From Gallionella sp. (GTDB lineage Bacteria; Pseudomonadota; Gammaproteobacteria; Burkholderiales; Gallionellaceae): a stretch of DNA of 39,772 nt. A program made the position numbers and the translations under genes. This document shows, one piece after another, positions 2,713 to 10,486 of the stretch (its first letter is position 1; each line of letters starts with the position of its first letter). The notes beneath the pieces are model-generated. The model made no database searches. It worked only from the letters and a program-made list of their open reading frames with translations, and had not been told where the DNA came from. Location: positions 1 to 39,772 of the forward strand of contig JANXXX010000062.1 in the NCBI GenBank assembly GCA_025350405.1, read 5' to 3'.

Positions 2713-2907
2713 GGTGCGTCCTCGTGAAAACTAACAGTAAAAATAAAGAAGCACGCATATTTCATTAAAGTTTCCAGCAGAATTTGGAGTGGTAAGTTCC
2801 GCAACTGGGACACTCCAGTCCACTGCGCATCGTACAACACCTCACCAAATCCGTCATTCATCCGTGTACCAATAACATAGTCAATACTCATTGTTCATAA
2901 TGCCTGC

Positions 2908-2947
2908 CGCAAACGTCTTGCCTGCGACACCACGTCTAAACGCGGCC
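2908..2947. repeat. Imperfect direct repeat, copy 1
   Basis: CGCAAACGTC, nine variable bases, then ACACCACGT and a TAAA-GCG tail. The second copy is at 3122-3159 with the same two blocks separated by eight bases. The copies are 214 bp apart. Function unknown; recombinase or Rep binding are possible. Confidence 0.6.
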
Positions 2948-3121
2948 AAAGCGCCGTCATGCCCTCGTTCCACTTCCTCCGTCTTCATCCATTTCGCCTA
3001 CCGCACATTCGCAACGCCCCGCTCCGCTAGGCTCCACTCTGCGACCGCTCAAAGCATTCAGCGATGGTCGTGAGGCTTCGTCGTGGCTCTTCAAACAACA
3101 CGGCCACATACGCCGAAGCGG

Positions 3122-3159
3122 CGCAAACGTCGTGTAGTCACACCACGTTAAAGCGCGCC
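3122..3159. repeat. Imperfect direct repeat, copy 2
   Basis: CGCAAACGTC (3122-3131) and ACACCACGT (3140-3148), followed by TAAAGCGCGCC. It matches copy 1 at 2908-2947 in the 10-bp and 9-bp blocks exactly. The intervening 170 bp are not similar to other parts of the window that I can see. Confidence 0.6.
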
Positions 3160-3529
3160 TAACCCCACCGTCCTGCTGCGCAGCACGGCCAACACCTAAA
3201 GCCCTGAACTACTGACTTCATCGTTTTTTAATTCGTTTCTAAAACCGTTCGCTGTTCACCATTTCAAATCTGGTCCGTGGCCATTCCGTCATATCGCCTG
3301 GCCGTGAGGAGATCGCTGGCTCGTAGGCGCACCACTCATGCCAGCCATCGAGGGCACAGTAAGGCTGTGCCACTGCGTGCGCTCCATCATCCGGTTCCTC
3401 CTCCGTCGGACTGCGGCCTCGGTTGGGCCTCTCGTCTGTCATGCCTGCTGCAACTCGCCAACCCATGCTCACCCCATCCCGGTTTAGGGCGAGCGATACG
3501 ACGGCATGACCACTACAAAGGAGAAGCAA

Positions 3530-4042
3530 ATGCGCGAACAACCAACCAACGAAACGACAAACAAAACCGCTTGCAGCAGCGAGCTCCACAACAGCATCAC
3601 TCAAACCAAACCACGAGGGCAAACCATGAACACAATTGAATTTCCATACACCCGCAAAGACGCAGGTATTGCACTGCACAAATTGCATGGTTTTATTGGC
3701 ACTGCACAACTCAGCGTTATTGGCGAGTTGGGTTACAGCGAGGAACGGCGATACATATTCAGTAAGCTTGTAGTGCTGGCAAAGATCGTAGAAAACATGC
3801 CAACCACCTACCAGACCGAGGGACAAGGGGAACAAGCGGTGGCGTACCTGCACTACTTTACGCAAGGCTGTGACTGGTACATCTCCGAGCGTGACTGTGA
3901 GATCGAACAACTACAAGCGTTTGGCAAGGCTGACTTGGGCATGGGATACCCAGAGCTTGGCTATATCTCCATCGTGGAATTGCTGGAATGCGGCGCCGAG
4001 TTAGACCTGCACTGGCAGCCACGCATGCTGTCTGAAATCTGA
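3530..4042 (+). CDS. Plasmid/ICE-type protein with DUF2958-like C-terminus
   Basis: A 170-residue hydrophilic protein. AAGGAG at 3518-3523 sits six bases before the ATG at 3530, so I choose that start over the ATG at 3506; a further in-frame ATG at 3626 begins the well-structured part. The C-terminal third contains a DLGMGYPELGYIS block followed by an ELDLHW block, which resembles DUF2958, a family of unknown function carried by plasmids and integrative elements. No enzymatic motif is apparent. It is followed after 103 bp, including a strong inverted repeat, by another small gene on the same strand. The context supports element-borne accessory DNA. Gene reality is likely; the family match is by eye. 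Confidence 0.65.
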   Translation: MREQPTNETTNKTACSSELHNSITQTKPRGQTMNTIEFPYTRKDAGIALHKLHGFIGTAQLSVIGELGYSEERRYIFSKLVVLAKIVENMPTTYQTEGQGEQAVAYLHYFTQGCDWYISERDCEIEQLQAFGKADLGMGYPELGYISIVELLECGAELDLHWQPRMLSEI

Positions 4043-4392: not shown

Positions 4393-4577
4393 TGCTTACA
4401 AATAAATGGAGTGTTGTCTACTCTTTGATTGGCCGAGCAAATGGCAGCGGGAATGATGTAAGGAAAATAAGTATTGTTGAAGCATTATGGGTTCAGCTAA
4501 CAATCAAAACTATTGCGCAATAACAATGTACAGTGGCATTATCTTTCCTAATCAGCTTAAAAAAATTGCCAAACGCT

Positions 4578-6029
4578 ATGTACAAATGGATACAGCTCAA
4601 CACTAGTGCCGATTTGAAACAACTTGAACAGTGCATTTCTGTCGAATATTCCCCGAAGCTTGTTAGTCAGCGCCTTGTCGGAGGTATCTCCGACGCTGTT
4701 AAATCGGTACTCATTGAAGATAATTACGTCGATAAGGATTATCGCAGTACTTATTACAATTTCTATACAAAAAAGGGACAGAAATATCGTGCTGATTGCG
4801 TACGCCTTCATTTTTTCGATCAGACTGTTTCATTCGAAGAGAAAGGTCTGAAATTAAGTTGGGAGGGCGAGCGGCTTGATGATCATTATTTTGGATACAT
4901 GATTCTTCGGCCAACAGGGATTGCGACAATTGGGCGTAGTATCTTGTCACCAGATGTAAGAAGTGGAGCTAAAGGATACATTATCGCTGCAGAACACAAG
5001 GTGCATCTGCTTGGCTATAAGTTATTAGTACGGGGTTTTCCGTCAATGGATCAACATATCGATATTTCGGTGTGTGCACATGCAGCGTGTTGGTCGATCC
5101 TTCGCCACTACAGCGAAAAATTCAACATTTATCGCGAATTTCATACACACGATATTACTTTGATGGCACAGCAGTTCAACCCTGGTGGGCTTGTGCCGTC
5201 AAAGGGGCTAGAGGTTTCCCACGCCGAGCGTGTTTTTCTGGAAGCGGGTACCTTTCCATTGCATGTTGCCAGAAATGGCCCCAAGGATGATTCATTTTAC
5301 CGGCAACTAAACGCATATGTGGAGTCTGGTTTTCCATTGTTTGCAGCAATGCATCACAGACGCCATGCAATTGCTGTTATGGGGTACGAGTGGCGCCCGC
5401 CAGTTAATACTGGGACTCTAGGAATGCGATACTCATGGAATGAGGTGAAATCACTCGTAGTTGTTGATGACAGTGACCTCCCATACCGTTCAATTCCAGT
5501 CAGCGGAGGGCCGTCATATTCGGCGGCGGACATTGATGCGTTTATTGTTCCACTTCCTGAAAAAGTATATTATCCTGCTGATGCTATAGATCTAATGGTG
5601 CCAAAGCTGTTTATTCTTAATGCGCTCATTGAGTTGCCGCATCAAGACGAAACGATTGTTCGGTATTTCATTGTGACAGGTTCTGGATTTCGAAGTTTCG
5701 TTCGTGGTAGGGAATCTGAATTTGATCCAAAACTAGTTGAAGAAATAATGCAACTTCCACTTGCACAATTCGTGTGGATTGTGGAATTGGCGACAGAAAA
5801 TCAATGGAGTAAAGGTTACGTCGCGGCACGTGCAGTAATAGACGCTACCGCAAGCTTGCGTGAAGAAACACCTTTTTGGCTGATTCATAACCGTAAACGC
5901 GCCCTTATTTTTAAACGCCGCGTGGTTGGAGACGGTATAGCTGAACTTGATGTGATCCAGCTTTCGGGAATGGAAAATACAGCATTAACACGTATGGATC
6001 AAAATTTGCGGCCTATTCAAGTCAAGTAA
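4578..6029 (+). CDS. Papain-fold (C39/C1-like) cysteine peptidase-domain protein
   Basis: A 483-residue protein from the ATG at 4578; a GTG at 4533 would add 15 residues and neither start has a clear ribosome site. No signal peptide is seen, so it should be cytoplasmic. The middle part shows a papain-like triad: a cysteine directly before tryptophan in CAHAACW (Cys171), a histidine in RRHAIAVMGY (His263), and acidic residues in VVVDDSD (about 297-300). The order and local sequence resemble C39 and papain peptidases. The flanking domains (residues 1-150 and 320-483) are not recognised. A 59-residue gene follows after 55 bp, and a ubiquitin-like operon lies beyond a divergent regulator. It could process or sense a protein of that system, or be an independent defence effector. 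The peptidase fold is likely; activity and target are inferred. Confidence 0.6.
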   Translation: MYKWIQLNTSADLKQLEQCISVEYSPKLVSQRLVGGISDAVKSVLIEDNYVDKDYRSTYYNFYTKKGQKYRADCVRLHFFDQTVSFEEKGLKLSWEGERLDDHYFGYMILRPTGIATIGRSILSPDVRSGAKGYIIAAEHKVHLLGYKLLVRGFPSMDQHIDISVCAHAACWSILRHYSEKFNIYREFHTHDITLMAQQFNPGGLVPSKGLEVSHAERVFLEAGTFPLHVARNGPKDDSFYRQLNAYVESGFPLFAAMHHRRHAIAVMGYEWRPPVNTGTLGMRYSWNEVKSLVVVDDSDLPYRSIPVSGGPSYSAADIDAFIVPLPEKVYYPADAIDLMVPKLFILNALIELPHQDETIVRYFIVTGSGFRSFVRGRESEFDPKLVEEIMQLPLAQFVWIVELATENQWSKGYVAARAVIDATASLREETPFWLIHNRKRALIFKRRVVGDGIAELDVIQLSGMENTALTRMDQNLRPIQVK

Positions 6030-6084
6030 TTTTCGAACTGGTAATGCAGTGTTGTAGCAATCAATTTATATAAGCGGGGGACGG

Positions 6085-6264
6085 ATGACTAAAAAGGAAA
6101 AGGTTGCTGTCAAGCCAATTGATAGCCAGCCGCCAGTTGACTTAAAGGCGCTCGAGGATTTTAGGAATGCAATGACAAATGAAGTTATCCCTGAGATTGT
6201 TCGCGTCGTCGAAGAACGGCGATTAGGAGCAGCCCAGAGTCGACATTGGCAATTGAAGTGTTAG
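6085..6264 (+). CDS. Small charged protein, 59 residues, ending in Cys
   Basis: An ATG at 6085 follows a GGGGG stretch by a few bases and opens a 59-codon frame ending at 6264. The protein has a Lys-rich N-terminus, a Pro-rich linker (about 11-18), an amphipathic helical stretch (about 20-47) with many Glu and Arg, and a short tail with the C-terminal residues QLKC. No family is recognised. It lies 55 bp after the papain-fold gene on the same strand and is closed by a good terminator hairpin, so the two are probably co-transcribed partners. It may be a regulatory or binding subunit, or a substrate of the peptidase. Too small to be certain. Confidence 0.5.
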   Translation: MTKKEKVAVKPIDSQPPVDLKALEDFRNAMTNEVIPEIVRVVEERRLGAAQSRHWQLKC

Positions 6265-6268
6265 AAGG

Positions 6269-6300
6269 CATGCGCCATGGCGGCGCATGATGGTTTTATT
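6269..6300 (+). terminator. Rho-independent terminator of the papain-fold/small-protein unit
   Basis: CATGCGCC (6269-6276) and GGCGCATG (6282-6289) form a perfect 8-bp stem with a five-base loop, followed by GGTTTTATTTG. It separates this unit from the convergent XRE gene, whose stop codon lies in the T-rich tail. Confidence 0.7.
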
Positions 6301-6682
6301 TGTTTGCCCCTTTGCGTAATTGCTCATAGGCGGCACGGACTATTGCTTCCATTGCCTCTGCCGCTTGTGTGCCAAGATTAGGGTCAGATCTGAGTAACGT
6401 TGATAATTGTGCCATTGGCTCAGGCCGCAGAGCCTTATATGGGGCATTCACAAAATCAGAGGGATTTAATCCTGCCCACGCTGAAAGAGCTGCTAAGCTG
6501 GCGGCATCGGGCTTGCGGCCTTGTGCCATTCTAGTAAGTGTTGATGTGCTCACTCTTGTTTCGGCTGCAACTTGCTTCCAGTTTTTTGAGCGACCTACGA
6601 CCGTGGCTTCTAAGGCACGATAAAAAGCGGCACCATCAAAACCTTTGTCTTCCTTCAAAATTGCATCATTTCTAATTGCCAT
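6296..6682 (-). CDS. XRE-type helix-turn-helix transcriptional regulator
   Basis: A 128-residue protein. Residues about 36-70 read as a lambda-repressor-like helix-turn-helix (WKQVAAETRVSTSTLTRM followed by GRKPDAASLAALSAW). The C-terminal half is helical and may serve dimerisation. No peptidase or ligand domain is visible. It is transcribed divergently from the ubiquitin-like operon, and the 112-bp gap between their start codons holds overlapping promoters and several palindromes. It is therefore the obvious candidate to control itself and the operon. The ATG at 6682 is preceded by AAGGTAGG. Function as DNA-binding regulator is likely; repression rather than activation is inferred from the operator placed between the -35 and -10 boxes. 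Confidence 0.75.
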   Translation of the reverse strand: MAIRNDAILKEDKGFDGAAFYRALEATVVGRSKNWKQVAAETRVSTSTLTRMAQGRKPDAASLAALSAWAGLNPSDFVNAPYKALRPEPMAQLSTLLRSDPNLGTQAAEAMEAIVRAAYEQLRKGANK

Positions 6683-6691
6683 TTGCCTACC

Positions 6692-6720
6692 TTATAAAAT
6701 TGCTAAATAGGGATTGACAA
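6692..6720 (-). promoter_or_regulatory. Putative promoter of the XRE gene
   Basis: On the minus strand TTGTCA (6720-6715) and TTATAA (6697-6692) are spaced by 17 bp. The -35 box overlaps that of the opposite promoter. The start point would fall close to the ATG at 6682, so the mRNA would have a very short or no leader. Confidence 0.5.
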
Positions 6721-6783
6721 CCTAACTAGGTATTTCTATACTATCCCATAAATTGCAGTTTAGCAATTTCTAACCTAAATAGG
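6697..6783. promoter_or_regulatory. Operator candidates between the XRE gene and the Ubl operon
   Basis: CCTAACTAGG (6721-6730, within the promoter spacer) and CCTAAATAGG (6774-6783, touching the ribosome site) are near-identical short palindromes; CTAAATAGG recurs at 6703-6711. An outer pair, AAATTGCTAAA (6697-6707) and TTTAGCAATTT (6759-6769), is an exact inverted repeat enclosing the whole promoter. These are likely XRE-protein binding sites and would let the regulator block both promoters. Confidence 0.6.
6714..6742 (+). promoter_or_regulatory. Strong sigma-70 promoter of the ubiquitin-like operon
   Basis: TTGACA (6714-6719) is a consensus -35 box, and TATACT (6737-6742) lies after an ideal 17-bp spacer. 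The spacer itself carries a palindrome, ACCTA-AC-TAGGT. Confidence 0.75.
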
Positions 6784-6794
6784 AAGGAAATATT

Positions 6795-7085
6795 ATGGAA
6801 TCGCAAAAAAATGAAGAGACTCTTCTAAAGGAGCAGGCTGCCAAAGGGCACGAGCACATAGTTACTGTGTTTGTTAACGAACAGCCAGTTAAATTGGACA
6901 AAGGTATTGCTACTGGCGCAGTCATCAAGAGTGCAGCAATTGCTCAGGGTGTACTTATTCAGCAGAGTTTTGTTTTGCAAGAAGAGCTCCCGAATGGAAC
7001 TAGTAAAATTATTGGAGATAACGATCCAGTAAATTTACATGAGCATTTGCGCTTTACAGCTATTGCACCTGACGACAATTCTTAA
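6795..7085 (+). CDS. Ubiquitin-like protein (Multi-ubiquitin family, single domain)
   Basis: A 96-residue protein with a charged N-terminal tail (about 1-20) and one beta-grasp domain beginning ITVFVN-like (HIVTVFVNEQPVKLDKG at about 20-36) and ending LRFTAIAP. This matches the bacterial multi-ubiquitin family, which is encoded next to E1-, E2- and JAB-like proteins. Most relatives carry several tandem domains; here there is one. The C-terminus is DDNS, with no di-glycine, so conventional activation would need another terminal residue or prior trimming by the JAB domain encoded downstream. AGGAAGG lies seven bases before the ATG. It is the first gene of a three-gene operon and presumably the modifier that is conjugated. 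Fold assigned by pattern, not by alignment. Confidence 0.75.
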   Translation: MESQKNEETLLKEQAAKGHEHIVTVFVNEQPVKLDKGIATGAVIKSAAIAQGVLIQQSFVLQEELPNGTSKIIGDNDPVNLHEHLRFTAIAPDDNS

Positions 7086-7097
7086 TAGGCATGTGCC

Positions 7098-7484
7098 ATG
7101 AAAATCGAGGTTTCAGCCGCCATTGAAGAATTGAAGCGTCAATTCAACAGTTCATTTTTCATCGTGAGCGAAGACGGTCAGGGTGGTGCAAGAATTGTGA
7201 TTGAGAATGTATCTATTGGAACAAAATTTAAGCCTGAAACAACATGGGTTGGCTTTCAGATTCCAGCTCTATATCCCTATGCTGACATATACCCTGTTTT
7301 TATTAGCGCCGATATTGCGCGTGCAGACGGTGTACCTTTTACAGCACCAATAACACCTGGCCACCAATTTGAGGGGCGGTCAGCTTTACAAGTTTCGCGA
7401 CGGAATGGTTCTGCCCAATCAGGGCTGCAAAAAGCGACAGCCAAGATATTAAAGATATTGGATTTTCTGGAAAAACTGCCATGA
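7098..7484 (+). CDS. E2-like (prokaryotic E2 family E-type) protein without cysteine
   Basis: A 128-residue protein with the hallmark block TTWVGFQIPALYPYADIYP (about residues 48-66) and a conserved-looking ALQVSRRN motif (about 96-103), typical of the UBC-fold proteins found in bacterial ubiquitin-like operons. In a classical E2 the catalytic cysteine would follow the YP.adiyP strand region. This protein contains no cysteine at all, so it cannot form a thioester; a Ser or His near the SRR motif is a possible substitute. It follows the Ubl gene by 12 bp and overlaps the JAB-E1 gene by four bases (ATGA), so production is coupled. Role: likely carrier or adaptor in Ubl transfer, inferred from family and operon. 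Confidence 0.7.
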   Translation: MKIEVSAAIEELKRQFNSSFFIVSEDGQGGARIVIENVSIGTKFKPETTWVGFQIPALYPYADIYPVFISADIARADGVPFTAPITPGHQFEGRSALQVSRRNGSAQSGLQKATAKILKILDFLEKLP

Positions 7485-8869
7485 CAAAGAAGTGCAATAT
7501 TCGCTTTTCTCGTGAACTATACGACAAAATAATGAATCATCTGTTTCCTGGGGACAAAGATGAGCATGGTGCGGTCCTTCTCGCGGGATTATCTGAGACC
7601 AATGACCTGACTACCCTGTTAGTACGGGAGGTACACTTAGCGCAAGAGGGCACCGACTATGCCAAGGGAAAGGTCGGGTATCGAGCACTTACACCAAAAT
7701 TTATTCATCAGCTCATTACCCGCGCACGAGATGAACGACTTGTATATCTTGCGGTGCATAACCACGGCAGTGATTTGGAAGTGGAATTCAGTAAGGTCGA
7801 TTTCGAATCTCATCAGCGTGGATATCCAGCTTTGTTGCAAATAGCTCGAGGAATGCCTGTCGGTGCACTTGTTTTTGGTCGGCGGTCAATTCAGGCAGAT
7901 ATATGGTTTCCAAACGGTACACGATTAGATCTAGATAGTGCTGTGATTGTAGGAAATACTATTCAGCGTTTAACTCCTTCTCCTAAAAAAAAACATCTTG
8001 GTACGCCTGAAACATATGATCGTCAAATAAAAATGTTTGGAAAAATCGGACAAGCAGATATTGCGGGTTGTCGTGTTGGAATTATCGGACTCGGAGGCAT
8101 TGGTAGCCTTGTTGCAGAATATCTCGCGCGACTTGGAGTGGGAAAATTTTGTCTTGTGGATGATGACTGTGTTGAAATTTCCAATCTATCACGCATTGTC
8201 GGGGCGACCATGACAGATGCTATTGGAGAAATAACCAAGGTGGAAGTAGCGCGACGTACAATTCTGCAGGCTAATAACAATGCAGAGATTGAGATCGTCG
8301 TCGACGATTTTGCTAAAGAATCTGTAGCAAAAAGAATTATTGATTGTGATTATTTATTTCTTGCTGCAGATTCAATGCGAGCTAGATTAGTTTTTAATGC
8401 TGTTGTCCACCAGTACCTCATTCCTGGAGTTCAGCTTGGCTCAAAAATTCGCTCGGACACTGCTTCAGGAGTAATTTTAGACGTGATGAGCGCAAATCGA
8501 CCTGTACGCCCTGGAAAAGGTTGCCTGTGGTGTAATCAACTCATTGACCCGACCCTGCTTGCGAAAGAGGCAAAAACTGATGAGGAACGAAAAACCCAGG
8601 CTTATGGTGTAGAAGAGGCAAACCCTAGTGTCATTAGTTTGAACGCTATTTCCGCAGCACATGCGGTTAATGATTTCCTACTGGACTACCTTGGGCTTCG
8701 TTCAGATGATGGGTTGCTTTACTATGAACATTTCCATCATTTAAAGAGCGTACCGAACGCGCGTAACATTGTCCAGCCACGTCAGGACGCAGAGTGCCCT
8801 GAGTGTTCAAATACAAGCCATCGATATGGACGCGGTGATTTGGCGAGACTACCCTGCATTGAAGGTTAG
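7481..8869 (+). CDS. JAB metalloprotease - E1-like (ThiF) adenylyltransferase fusion
   Basis: A 462-residue two-domain protein. Residues 1-155 form a JAB/JAMM isopeptidase with the zinc set Glu28, His93-x-His95 and Ser104-x-x-Asp107. Residues about 175-445 form an E1/MoeB-type domain with the nucleotide motif GLGGIGS (203-209), the DDDCVEISNLSR segment (227-238) and a zinc pair GCLWC and CPEC. The usual catalytic cysteine loop of Uba4/MoeB enzymes, just before the final helices, reads QAYGVEEANPSV here and has no cysteine. The protein could thus both trim the Ubl and adenylate it. The gene overlaps the E2-like gene by ATGA and is the last of the operon. Domain calls are confident; thioester-free chemistry is inferred. 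Confidence 0.85.
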   Translation: MTKKCNIRFSRELYDKIMNHLFPGDKDEHGAVLLAGLSETNDLTTLLVREVHLAQEGTDYAKGKVGYRALTPKFIHQLITRARDERLVYLAVHNHGSDLEVEFSKVDFESHQRGYPALLQIARGMPVGALVFGRRSIQADIWFPNGTRLDLDSAVIVGNTIQRLTPSPKKKHLGTPETYDRQIKMFGKIGQADIAGCRVGIIGLGGIGSLVAEYLARLGVGKFCLVDDDCVEISNLSRIVGATMTDAIGEITKVEVARRTILQANNNAEIEIVVDDFAKESVAKRIIDCDYLFLAADSMRARLVFNAVVHQYLIPGVQLGSKIRSDTASGVILDVMSANRPVRPGKGCLWCNQLIDPTLLAKEAKTDEERKTQAYGVEEANPSVISLNAISAAHAVNDFLLDYLGLRSDDGLLYYEHFHHLKSVPNARNIVQPRQDAECPECSNTSHRYGRGDLARLPCIEG

Positions 8870-9019
8870 TTTAATTGTGAACGACCTATACAGAACACTC
8901 TGAATGCACAAATTAGGATGGTACAGTCAGTCCGAGCGGACATACTTGCACCTTGATATAATGCTACGCAAACAGAGAAAAATTCTTGAGCGGCTAAAGC
9001 AGGACAACCAAAAGCGTTT

Positions 9020-9041
9020 GTTGGTATATATGTTGGTATAT
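9020..9041. repeat. Tandem GTTGGTATAT boxes, probable element end
   Basis: GTTGGTATAT occurs at 9020-9029 and 9032-9041, 12 bp apart. Paired TTGGTATA boxes are common near attachment sites of islands carried by tyrosine recombinases, where they act as arm-type sites. The boxes lie where accessory DNA gives way to miaB. No recombinase gene and no tRNA are visible here; the other end must be outside the window. The remainder of 8870-9070 contains no gene I can support. Confidence 0.45.
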
Positions 9042-9070
9042 TTATAAGCTAGTTATACGAAAAGTAAGAT

Positions 9071-10486
9071 ATGGTGCGGCATACAGCCAATGATTCAATT
9101 GCACCTATCCCACCAAACAATCGGTGCCATAGCGTGCTCCCAAGTTTGCCAAAGAAATTCCATATCAAAACTTTCGGCTGCCAGATGAACGAGTATGACT
9201 CGGACAAGATGGCGGATGTGTTGCGCGCCTGCGCGGGCATGGAGCAGACTGGCAAACCTGAAGATGCAGATATCATTCTGTTTAACACCTGCTCGATACG
9301 CGAGAAGGCGGAAGAGAAAGTGTTCTCCGACCTGGGGCGGGTGCGTCCGCTCAAACTGGCCAATCCCGATCTGCTGATAGCGGTAGGAGGTTGCGTGGCG
9401 AGTCAGGAGGGCGCGGCCATCTTGAAGCGCGCGCCGTATGTCGATATCGTGTTCGGCCCGCAGACGCTGCATCGCTTGCCGCAATTGCTGGAGGCGCGCC
9501 GTGCAACGGGACGCCCGCAAGTGGACATCAGTTTTCCCGAGATCGAAAAATTCGATCATCTGCCCGCACCCCAAACAGTTTCCGGCACAGCCTACGTGTC
9601 CATCATGGAAGGCTGCAGCAAATATTGTACGTTCTGCGTTGTGCCCTATACGCGCGGCGAAGAAGTCTCGCGTCCGCTGGCGGATGTGCTGCATGATGTG
9701 CAGCAGTTGGTCGCGCAGGGTGTGAAAGAAGTCACGCTGCTCGGGCAGAATGTGAATGCATATCGCGGCGCGGGCGATGATGGCGACACGGTGGATTTCG
9801 CTTACTTGCTGCAAGCTATCGCGGCGCTGGAGGGCATCGCCCGCGTGCGTTATACGACTTCGCACCCCAAGGATATGACGCAACGGCTGATCGATGTGTA
9901 TGCGACCACCCCCAAGCTGGTCAGCCATTTGCATCTGCCGGTGCAATCCGGCTCGGATCGTATATTGGCGGCGATGAAGCGCGGCCATACCGTGCTGGAA
10001 TACAAATCCATCATCCGCCGGGTGCGCGCGGCGCGCCCCACTATTTGCATCACCTCTGATTTTATCGTCGGCTTTCCCGGCGAGACCGAGCAGGATTTTG
10101 AAGCGACCATGAAGTTGATCGAAGAGGTGGGCTTCGATAATAGCTTCAGTTACCTGTACAGCCCGCGCCCCGGCACGCCCGCTGCCGAGATGCGAGACGA
10201 TACGCCACATGAAGTGAAGGCTGCGCGCCTGAAGCGTTTGCAGGATCGCATTGCCGAGCAGGAGGATGCGGTAGCACAGGCGATGCTAGGCACGACGCAA
10301 CGCGCGTTGGTCGAGGGCGTGTCGAAAAAAGATGTTCTGGAATTGGCCGCGCGCACCGACAACAATCGCGTGGTGAATTTTCGCGGCGCAGCGAGCCTGA
10401 TCGGCAGCTTCGTCGAGGTGAAGATCACCGAGGTGGTGCGCCACACATTACGCGGCGAACTGGCGATGGTTGCACATGAAGGGTAA
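9071..10486 (+). CDS. miaB: tRNA-2-methylthio-N6-dimethylallyladenosine synthase MiaB
   Basis: A radical-SAM methylthiotransferase that adds a methylthio group to i6A37 in tRNAs. An N-terminal UPF0004 domain carries cysteines in [17 protein letters not shown] and GGCVAS. The radical-SAM motif CSKYCTFC is at about residues 182-189, and a TRAM domain ends the protein. Full length is 471 residues from the ATG at 9071, but family members normally begin a few residues before [12 protein letters not shown]. The first 25 residues are thus unusual; TTG 9146 or GTG 9134 would give a standard N-terminus, though neither has a good ribosome site. The upstream region belongs to the putative mobile element, so the native start or promoter may have been replaced. 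The 3' end overlaps ybeY. Confidence 0.95.

Follow-up and report, generated by a model that had tools for sequence, protein, structure and literature searches.

A Bub-like operon of Gallionella and a putative clade of relatives whose ubiquitin-like proteins share a -DDNS tail

Operons that combine genes for a ubiquitin-like protein (Ubl), an E2-like protein and a JAB peptidase fused to an E1 enzyme are already known, as operon type 6e (2006) and as Bub (2025-26), for which PMC13373217 cites a total of 544 operons and Ye et al. (2026) are said to have described an oxyester chemistry. An operon of this kind occupies positions 6795-8869 of a 39,772-nt contig of Gallionella sp. (JANXXX010000062.1), the whole of which is referred to here as the window. 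Its Ubl, E2-like and JAB-E1 genes are intact open frames, tightly packed on the plus strand, and the recurrence of the same genes in the same order in relatives of the operon makes the arrangement more than a product of chance. The operon is real, intact and Bub-like, and it lies in accessory DNA. An earlier note, made from the sequence of the window, had proposed the three folds, the co-occurrence of the genes, the relation to Bub-type operons and the accessory location, and all of these are borne out; neither did the folds fail nor did the genes prove unlinked elsewhere, the two outcomes that it had named as contrary evidence. It had passed over the -DDNS terminus of the Ubl, the missing DUF6527 gene, and a C39-like peptidase and small protein encoded nearby. 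As far as our searches go, the operon appears to belong to a new, distinct clade of Bub/type 6e operons.

The three proteins and their relatives

The window Ubl matches Multi_ubiq (PF14452) with 32.7 bits against a cut-off of 24.5, in keeping with a beta-grasp fold. When solved structures were searched by sequence, the best match of the single protein was an unrelated potassium-uptake protein (E 0.049), and that of a Ubl profile (A2) was a multi-ubiquitin protein (E 0.04). The E2-like protein scores just under the cut-off of Prok-E2_E (PF14462; 23.8 bits, cut-off 25) and, as a single sequence, found no relevant match among solved structures. Because these sequence matches are weak or lacking, its link to BubB rests on an AlphaFold2 model (predicted local distance difference test 93.3), for which BubB is the sole Foldseek match at E<=0.001 and the best VIA-align match (Z 12.4; runner-up 9.2). 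The E1 half of the fusion contains a ThiF domain (4.6e-35), and the closest solved relative of the protein is BubCD (9ea4; 7.8e-31), aligned over residues 9-407. Of the family matches anticipated for the operon, those to Multi_ubiq and ThiF were thus obtained, that to Prok-E2_E fell marginally short, and one to JAB was lacking in Pfam at E<=1; neither NCBIfam nor PADLOC named a Ubl or E2 family among the window proteins. The JAB half is nevertheless recognizable by JAMM residues H93, H95, S104 and D107, which are invariant in seven aligned E1s together with a candidate JAMM Glu, E28.

The genome scan yielded 127 relatives, of which the best 80 were retained; adding seven plasmid loci and the window itself and removing one duplicate (L086) gives the 87 loci of the clade. 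Among the matches listed from the plasmid search (best 60 of 175), relatives H1-H9 are 40-47% identical to the query and the others mostly 25-33%; H24 also reaches 40-47%, over 64% of the query only. By taxon labels the clade spans at least 10 phyla (Pseudomonadota, Nitrospirota, Gemmatimonadota, Chloroflexota, Actinomycetota, Cyanobacteriota, Acidobacteriota, Verrucomicrobiota, Planctomycetota, Spirochaetota and others), although many of the genomes are metagenome-assembled and their labels depend on binning. In an E1 tree built by a quick method, from which the truncated L007 and L031 were left out, the remaining 85 of 87 clade rows split from 15 other rows with a Shimodaira-Hasegawa-like approximate likelihood ratio (SH-aLRT) support of 98; the program warned of long outgroup branches. 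Closer to the window, none of 60 related genomes (36 of the genus, 24 of the order) contains the full-length E1 fusion; their ThiF-domain matches cover 41 to 177 residues only, and two genomes have none. The E2 profile matched four of the 398 genomes in a phylum sample, one of them weakly. A viral origin of the Ubl operon was rejected: a scan of viral contigs with the E1 alignment (two peptide patterns, 18 stretches) turned up no relative, and in phage records the ThiF domain was matched only in part, over 34-39% of the query in 7 records. A distant archaeal operon, on a Halanaeroarchaeum plasmid (L130), has a ThiF-family gene that aligns with the JAB-E1s on a very long branch.

The seven aligned E1s also share N235, R238, K253 and D297, presumably adenylation residues; we assign the roles of E1 residues by comparison with AMSH and MoeB, the latter supplying the counterparts for adenylation. 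Their only invariant Cys form two CxxC pairs, C348/C351 and C439/C442. Tyr375, 8 residues before a PSVI motif, is likewise invariant and lies in what we take to be the region where ThiF/MoeB-type E1s carry the crossover-loop Cys; a loose pattern around it is found in 83 of the 87 loci, L007 and L031 being truncated and L085 and L093 lacking it. In the E2 alignment (76 of 83 E2s, with 7 short or over-extended rows excluded), Ser100, Lys116, Pro60, Tyr65 and Pro66 are each invariant in all 76 rows, and Cys occupies any given column in at most 13. Judged from these alignments, neither the E2 nor the E1 of the clade has a conserved catalytic Cys. The motif around the E2 Ser reads WSRH or WFSWH in other operons and mostly SRR or SRK in the clade. 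One explanation would make the E2 a non-catalytic, RWD-like scaffold, with the E1 passing the Ubl adenylate directly to a target or a small molecule. This seems unlikely to us, given that five invariant residues are more than a scaffold would need and that the Ser is common to other Bub-like E2s as well.

The -DDNS tail and the missing DUF6527 gene

A Ubl was readable in 81 of the 87 loci; of the remaining six, five have an E1 gene that begins within 400 bases of the locus end, and the sixth, L050, gave no Ubl match. The Ubls end in DDNS in 73 cases, in HEDS in three, in EDNS in two, and in DENS and DDHS in one each, giving a C-terminal Ser in 80 of 81 and a penultimate Asn in 76 (73 DDNS, 2 EDNS, 1 DENS). 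The one remaining tail, at L084:5848-6597, extends two residues beyond DDTS, through a sequencing error or as a true variant. Since 62 of the Ubls have at most 175 amino acids (aa) and 19 have at least 200, short and multi-domain forms alike carry the tail. Across the 73 genes that encode DDNS, Ser is specified by TCN in 55 cases and by AGY in 18, either Asp codon occurs at each of the two Asp sites, and the distance to the nearest E2 start ranges from -14 to +21. Such mixed synonymous codons and variable gaps indicate that the constraint acts on the protein, and they rule out chance or overlap coding as the source of the motif.

The comparison set of 15 other operons includes nine with a free Ubl and six with the Ubl fused to the E2. 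All nine free Ubls have Gly within the last ten residues and three end in it (TTTEG, TTEGGA, PKANFG twice, ATFGHGNH, ATFGGGV, SPGVR, TEGCGLGQELC and AEGGVV), and the last residue of two solved BubA chains aligns to Gly230 of a homologous BubA-BubB fusion, just before BubB. Counted by eye from the last strand, RFTAIAPDDNS and RFSAVPKANFG are equally long, so the Ser appears to occupy the position that Gly holds in other Bub-like Ubls. A literature search covering listings and text passages found no description of the DDNS tail. The Asn-Ser end might instead itself be modified by the E1 domain, as MccB and PaaA act in microcin C and pantocin, respectively: both enzymes are among the solved E1-like relatives, Asn is penultimate in those 76 tails, and no Cys would be needed. 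We hold this to be very improbable, as MccB (1e-8) and PaaA (2e-9) match far more weakly than BubCD (8e-31 when rounded), and the accompanying E2 and JAB would go unexplained.

A DUF6527 hidden Markov model (HMM) was built from 11 proteins of non-clade loci. DUF6527 genes are present in 15 of 16 such loci fetched, namely the 11 HMM members and four for which the plasmid table does not list the gene; the one without is the haloarchaeal L130. None of the 87 clade loci, the window included, has a match even at E<=1, some of their contigs being short, and a narrower DUF6527 HMM likewise matched none of the clade. A solved DUF6527 structure was looked for and not found. Our guess is that DUF6527 processes or deconjugates Gly-ended Ubls; if so, its absence fits a tail that is already mature. 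If this were an ordinary canonical Bub operon, or a decayed one, that happened to have lost DUF6527, it would show the gene order and folds of Bub, as it does. We give that account almost no credence: all window genes are intact, and the clade-wide absence of DUF6527 combined with a nearly invariant new tail contradicts it.

With moderate confidence we favor reading the operon as a Bub-type (type 6e) conjugation cassette, belonging to a clade of its own, whose tag would be produced with its C-terminal Ser in place and handed over as an oxyester. We infer that the Ubl would be made already mature, so that a processing protease, perhaps the protein DUF6527, would be superfluous. Within the fusion, the E1 half would adenylate the terminal carboxylate, the acyl group would move to E2 Ser100 as an oxyester and from there to a target, and the JAB half would remove the Ubl again. 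An XRE repressor bound between the divergent genes would keep the operon silent until stress, and the C39-like peptidase with its small partner may be a linked second module, serving as effector, second deconjugase or repressor-cleaving protease. The role, in mobile DNA, is perhaps defence. We put forward only tentatively the stricter version, in which the cascade would work without a C-terminal Gly and without a catalytic Cys, carrying a Ser-ended -DDNS Ubl through Ser/Tyr oxyesters (E2 Ser100; perhaps E1 Tyr375), with no maturation protease and coupled to a papain-like peptidase module.

Several points weigh against the favored cassette. To our knowledge, all E1-activated Ubls end in glycine when activated, and we know of no precedent for E1 activation of a Ser C-terminus. 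Bub has a protease, and DUF6527 as that protease is a guess; the conjugation activity of the cascade is itself a prediction. The sequence link between the E2 and BubB is weak (E 0.37 with a 76-row profile), and E2s entirely without Cys, like that of the window, number only 36 of 83 among the relatives. Finally, the same kind of E2 is read as catalytically inactive and RWD-like by Iyer et al. (2006; PMC1779556).

A phylum-spanning, Ser-ended clade would let the glycine requirement of E1 chemistry be tested directly, along with a cascade that has no conserved catalytic Cys and the reason why DUF6527 is missing exactly where the Ubl comes with a finished tail. Such operons can also be sought by a simple sequence signature, made up of the -DDNS end, the E2 Ser and the absence of DUF6527; a general defence library, PADLOC, missed the Ubl and E2 of the window.

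Peptidase, regulation and genomic setting

Table 1. Features of the window and their coordinates.
Feature	Position	Strand	Remarks
TraD-like gene	12-1583, contig start		T4SS-DNA_transf 35 bits (cut-off 20.1); SXT_TraD 85.6 bits (cut-off 366)
C39-like (papain-fold) cysteine peptidase	4533-6029	+	498 aa
Small helical protein, peptidase partner	6085-6264	+	59 aa; helical by reading of the sequence
Terminator-like stem-loop after peptidase/small-protein unit	6269-6289	+	consensus only; 1 found vs 3.2 expected (shuffling)
XRE/Cro-type regulator, divergent	6296-6682	-	128 aa; helix-turn-helix (HTH) models all below cut-off
Candidate operators, CCTAAnTAGG-like, three	6702-6711, 6721-6730, 6774-6783		around promoter, span 6702-6783
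Sigma-70-like promoter for Ubl operon, TTGACA-17-TATACT (11/12)	6714-6742	+	consensus only
Ubl, single beta-grasp	6795-7085	+	96 aa; encoded C-terminus -APDDNS, last four codons 7071-7082
E2-like UBC-fold protein	7098-7484	+	128 aa; no Cys; Ser100 codon 7395-7397
JAB (JAMM)-E1 (ThiF) fusion	7481-8869	+	462 aa; ThiF match residues 179-430
Accessory DNA/core chromosome junction, miaB side	8870-9088		homology to 11 congener loci starts 9088-9162

The earlier note had called the operon minimal, a description that does not suit the peptidase and small protein (4533-6264), which recur with the operon in its subclade. Residues Q174, C181, H278 and D312 of the peptidase are invariant in 25 homologues and provide the Gln/Cys/His/Asp active site of a papain-like fold; Pfam C39 models did not match the window protein at E<=1, and Peptidase_C39_2 matches six of the 25 homologues. 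The peptidase is kept in 17/17 and 10/11 judgeable loci of two subclades that span several phyla, and small-protein homologues occur in 17 of the 87 loci, every one with a peptidase gene. In one locus (L019:4152-5608) the peptidase gene is split into two overlapping open reading frames (ORFs), a possible frameshift or decay.

That the peptidase is exclusive to Ubl operons was ruled out: its family occurs in 20 of the 398 phylum-sample genomes, the window's included, and at all ten loci fetched from the 19 others no XRE or Ubl HMM match lies within three ORFs. A phage-like contig from IMG/VR (L131:1438-3116) encodes a peptidase 69% identical to that of the window and its small partner, adjoining apparent phage portal and head genes, with no Ubl operon in the 9.9 kb covered. 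The peptidase also extends beyond the DDNS clade: on a Pseudomonas plasmid (L134:4226-11019), a small ORF and a homologue of 726 aa come after a canonical Bub operon that includes DUF6527. The gene lies near a TrlF-type ATPase on a Shewanella plasmid and adjoins a caspase-family gene on a Hymenobacter plasmid, each time with a small ORF beside it. Across the family (about 500-750 aa), an ORF of 61-86 aa lies directly 5' in four of the ten genomic loci fetched and at both of the distant loci on viral contigs (L173, L174, L177, L179, L132 and L133), in what looks from these sequences like a widespread undescribed gene pair. Its presence with a small ORF on the phage-like contig and the three plasmids speaks for an independent defence module, of the protease-inhibitor or toxin-antitoxin-like type, that simply travels with Ubl operons. 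We regard this as a serious possibility, just short of one that we would adopt; its retention in the two subclades exceeds what mere proximity would give.

Alternatively, and compatibly with the favored cassette, the peptidase could replace ImmA/CapP, cleaving the XRE repressor on a signal and so inducing the operon. An ImmA-like gene lies near the operon in 38 of the 87 clade loci, that is, in one of the 27 with a peptidase and 37 of the 60 others (Fisher p 1e-7), and the XRE family is present in 27/27 against 30/60; near the window operon no ImmA-like ORF was found. However, just two changes on the E1 tree account for where the peptidase is present (22 of 85 rows unjudged), so the Fisher test treats relatives as independent, and short contigs were scored as absences. 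The occurrence of the family away from such operons, in those 19 genomes and at the ten loci lacking XRE and Ubl neighbors, adds to our doubt about this role.

The divergent XRE gene that had been predicted is present, although its HTH scores stay below all cut-offs. Its product is 49.6% identical to an HTH protein of Synechocystis pSYSX and 45.2% to that of L001; capH did not match it at E<=1 and matched the 49.6% identical homologue, in L008, weakly (5.7e-4). The promoter consensus has one match in the AT-rich stretch 6000-9100, against a mean of 5.8 in shuffles. Sites resembling CCTAAnTAGG with at most one mismatch number seven in the whole window on both strands, against 3.1 expected, a count reached by 5 of 100 shuffles. 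One or two similar sites occur in five of 34 other HTH-Ubl gaps, and two of the 35 gaps have at least two, against a mean of 0.01 in shuffled gaps. A clade-wide operator is excluded by their occurrence in only 6 of 35 gaps; any such operator would be local to near relatives at most.

In a congener (G022) ordinary, core-like genes lie upstream of miaB (presumably SPOR, CoaX and BirA genes, names that we assign from their translations), and together with the start of congener homology this indicates that the operon abuts the island edge. The GC fraction is 0.43-0.46 over 4.0-9.0 kb and about 0.54-0.56 in the next 3 kb. In the same-genus genome L118 the site upstream of miaB is occupied by different accessory DNA, parts of which are 70-74% identical to window 2906-3613 and which includes an ORF that reads as ArdC-like in translation; the site is possibly an insertion hotspot. 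The operon had also been placed next to a conjugation gene and given a possible conjugation role. Neither idea found support: the TraD-like gene is 5.2 kb away and was all that spoke for such a role. Among plasmids with any match in the plasmid search, 71 of 175 are conjugative. The neighbor scan drew 120 ORFs at random from 225 eligible (200-1300 aa), of which 29 were dropped by hand and 91 scanned. Among the matches listed (first 25 families) were eight to PADLOC capP and seven to Peptidase_M78, with single matches to BrxL or a type I methyltransferase, and a relaxase and an integrase as well. The relatives thus seem to sit in the neighborhood of defence systems, and a defence role is plausible.

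Comparison with known systems

CBASS Cap2/Cap3 likewise pairs E1-E2 chemistry with a JAB protease in phage defence (PMC10097602). It differs in its fused E1-E2, its lack of a Ubl gene and its thioester; its structures match the window E1 weakly in the PDB. The anti-phage Bil operon (BilABCD) resembles the window operon in combining Ubl, E2, JAB and E1. In Bil, however, BilA ends in Gly and BilB and BilD use Cys (PMC11354881), and JAB and E1 are separate genes; the window operon has neither the catalytic Cys in E2 and E1 nor the separate JAB gene, its JAB being fused to the E1 and its E2 devoid of Cys.

A third operon form is carried by plasmids of Mesorhizobium, Bradyrhizobium, Deinococcus and Rhizobium (L119-L122). 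It comprises a Ubl with PKANFG or ATFG near the end, a JAB-E1, a phosphotransferase-annotated gene and a DUF6527 gene, with a WFSWH-bearing E2 in three loci and no E2 read in L122.

Operon type 6e, or 'polyUbl', agrees with the window operon in its 1-3 Ubl repeats, its JAB fused to the E1 and its inactive-looking E2/RWD protein; it has in addition a Zn-finger-like metal-binding protein (e.g. sll6052) not found here, and the available part of its description does not mention a DDNS tail (Iyer et al., 2006; PMC1779556). We take sll6052 to be the DUF6527 gene. Of the traits of Bub and type 6e, the window operon has the Multi_ubiq protein, the UBC-fold E2 that lacks the catalytic Cys and is encoded between Ubl and E1, and the BubCD-homologous JAB-E1. 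It does not have the DUF6527/metal-binding protein or the Gly-containing Ubl C-terminus, the latter being a defining trait that we infer from the rows seen.

The nearest counterpart is the Citrobacter operon BubA-BubB-BubCD, with which the window operon shares a Multi_ubiq Ubl, a UBC-fold E2 with the same Ser, the JAB-E1 fusion and the gene order, as well as an XRE regulator, often with ImmA/CapP-like proteins, and a plasmid or island location. In the homologous loci read, a DUF6527 gene follows the BubA-BubB-BubCD-like genes. The clade of the window differs in the -DDNS end of its Ubl, in having no DUF6527, in an E2 motif of SRR rather than SRH/SWH, in a JAMM spacing of HxHx8S in 85 of 87 loci (x9 in the other 2) against x7 in 10 of 15 other rows, and in the C39-like peptidase encoded near its operons.
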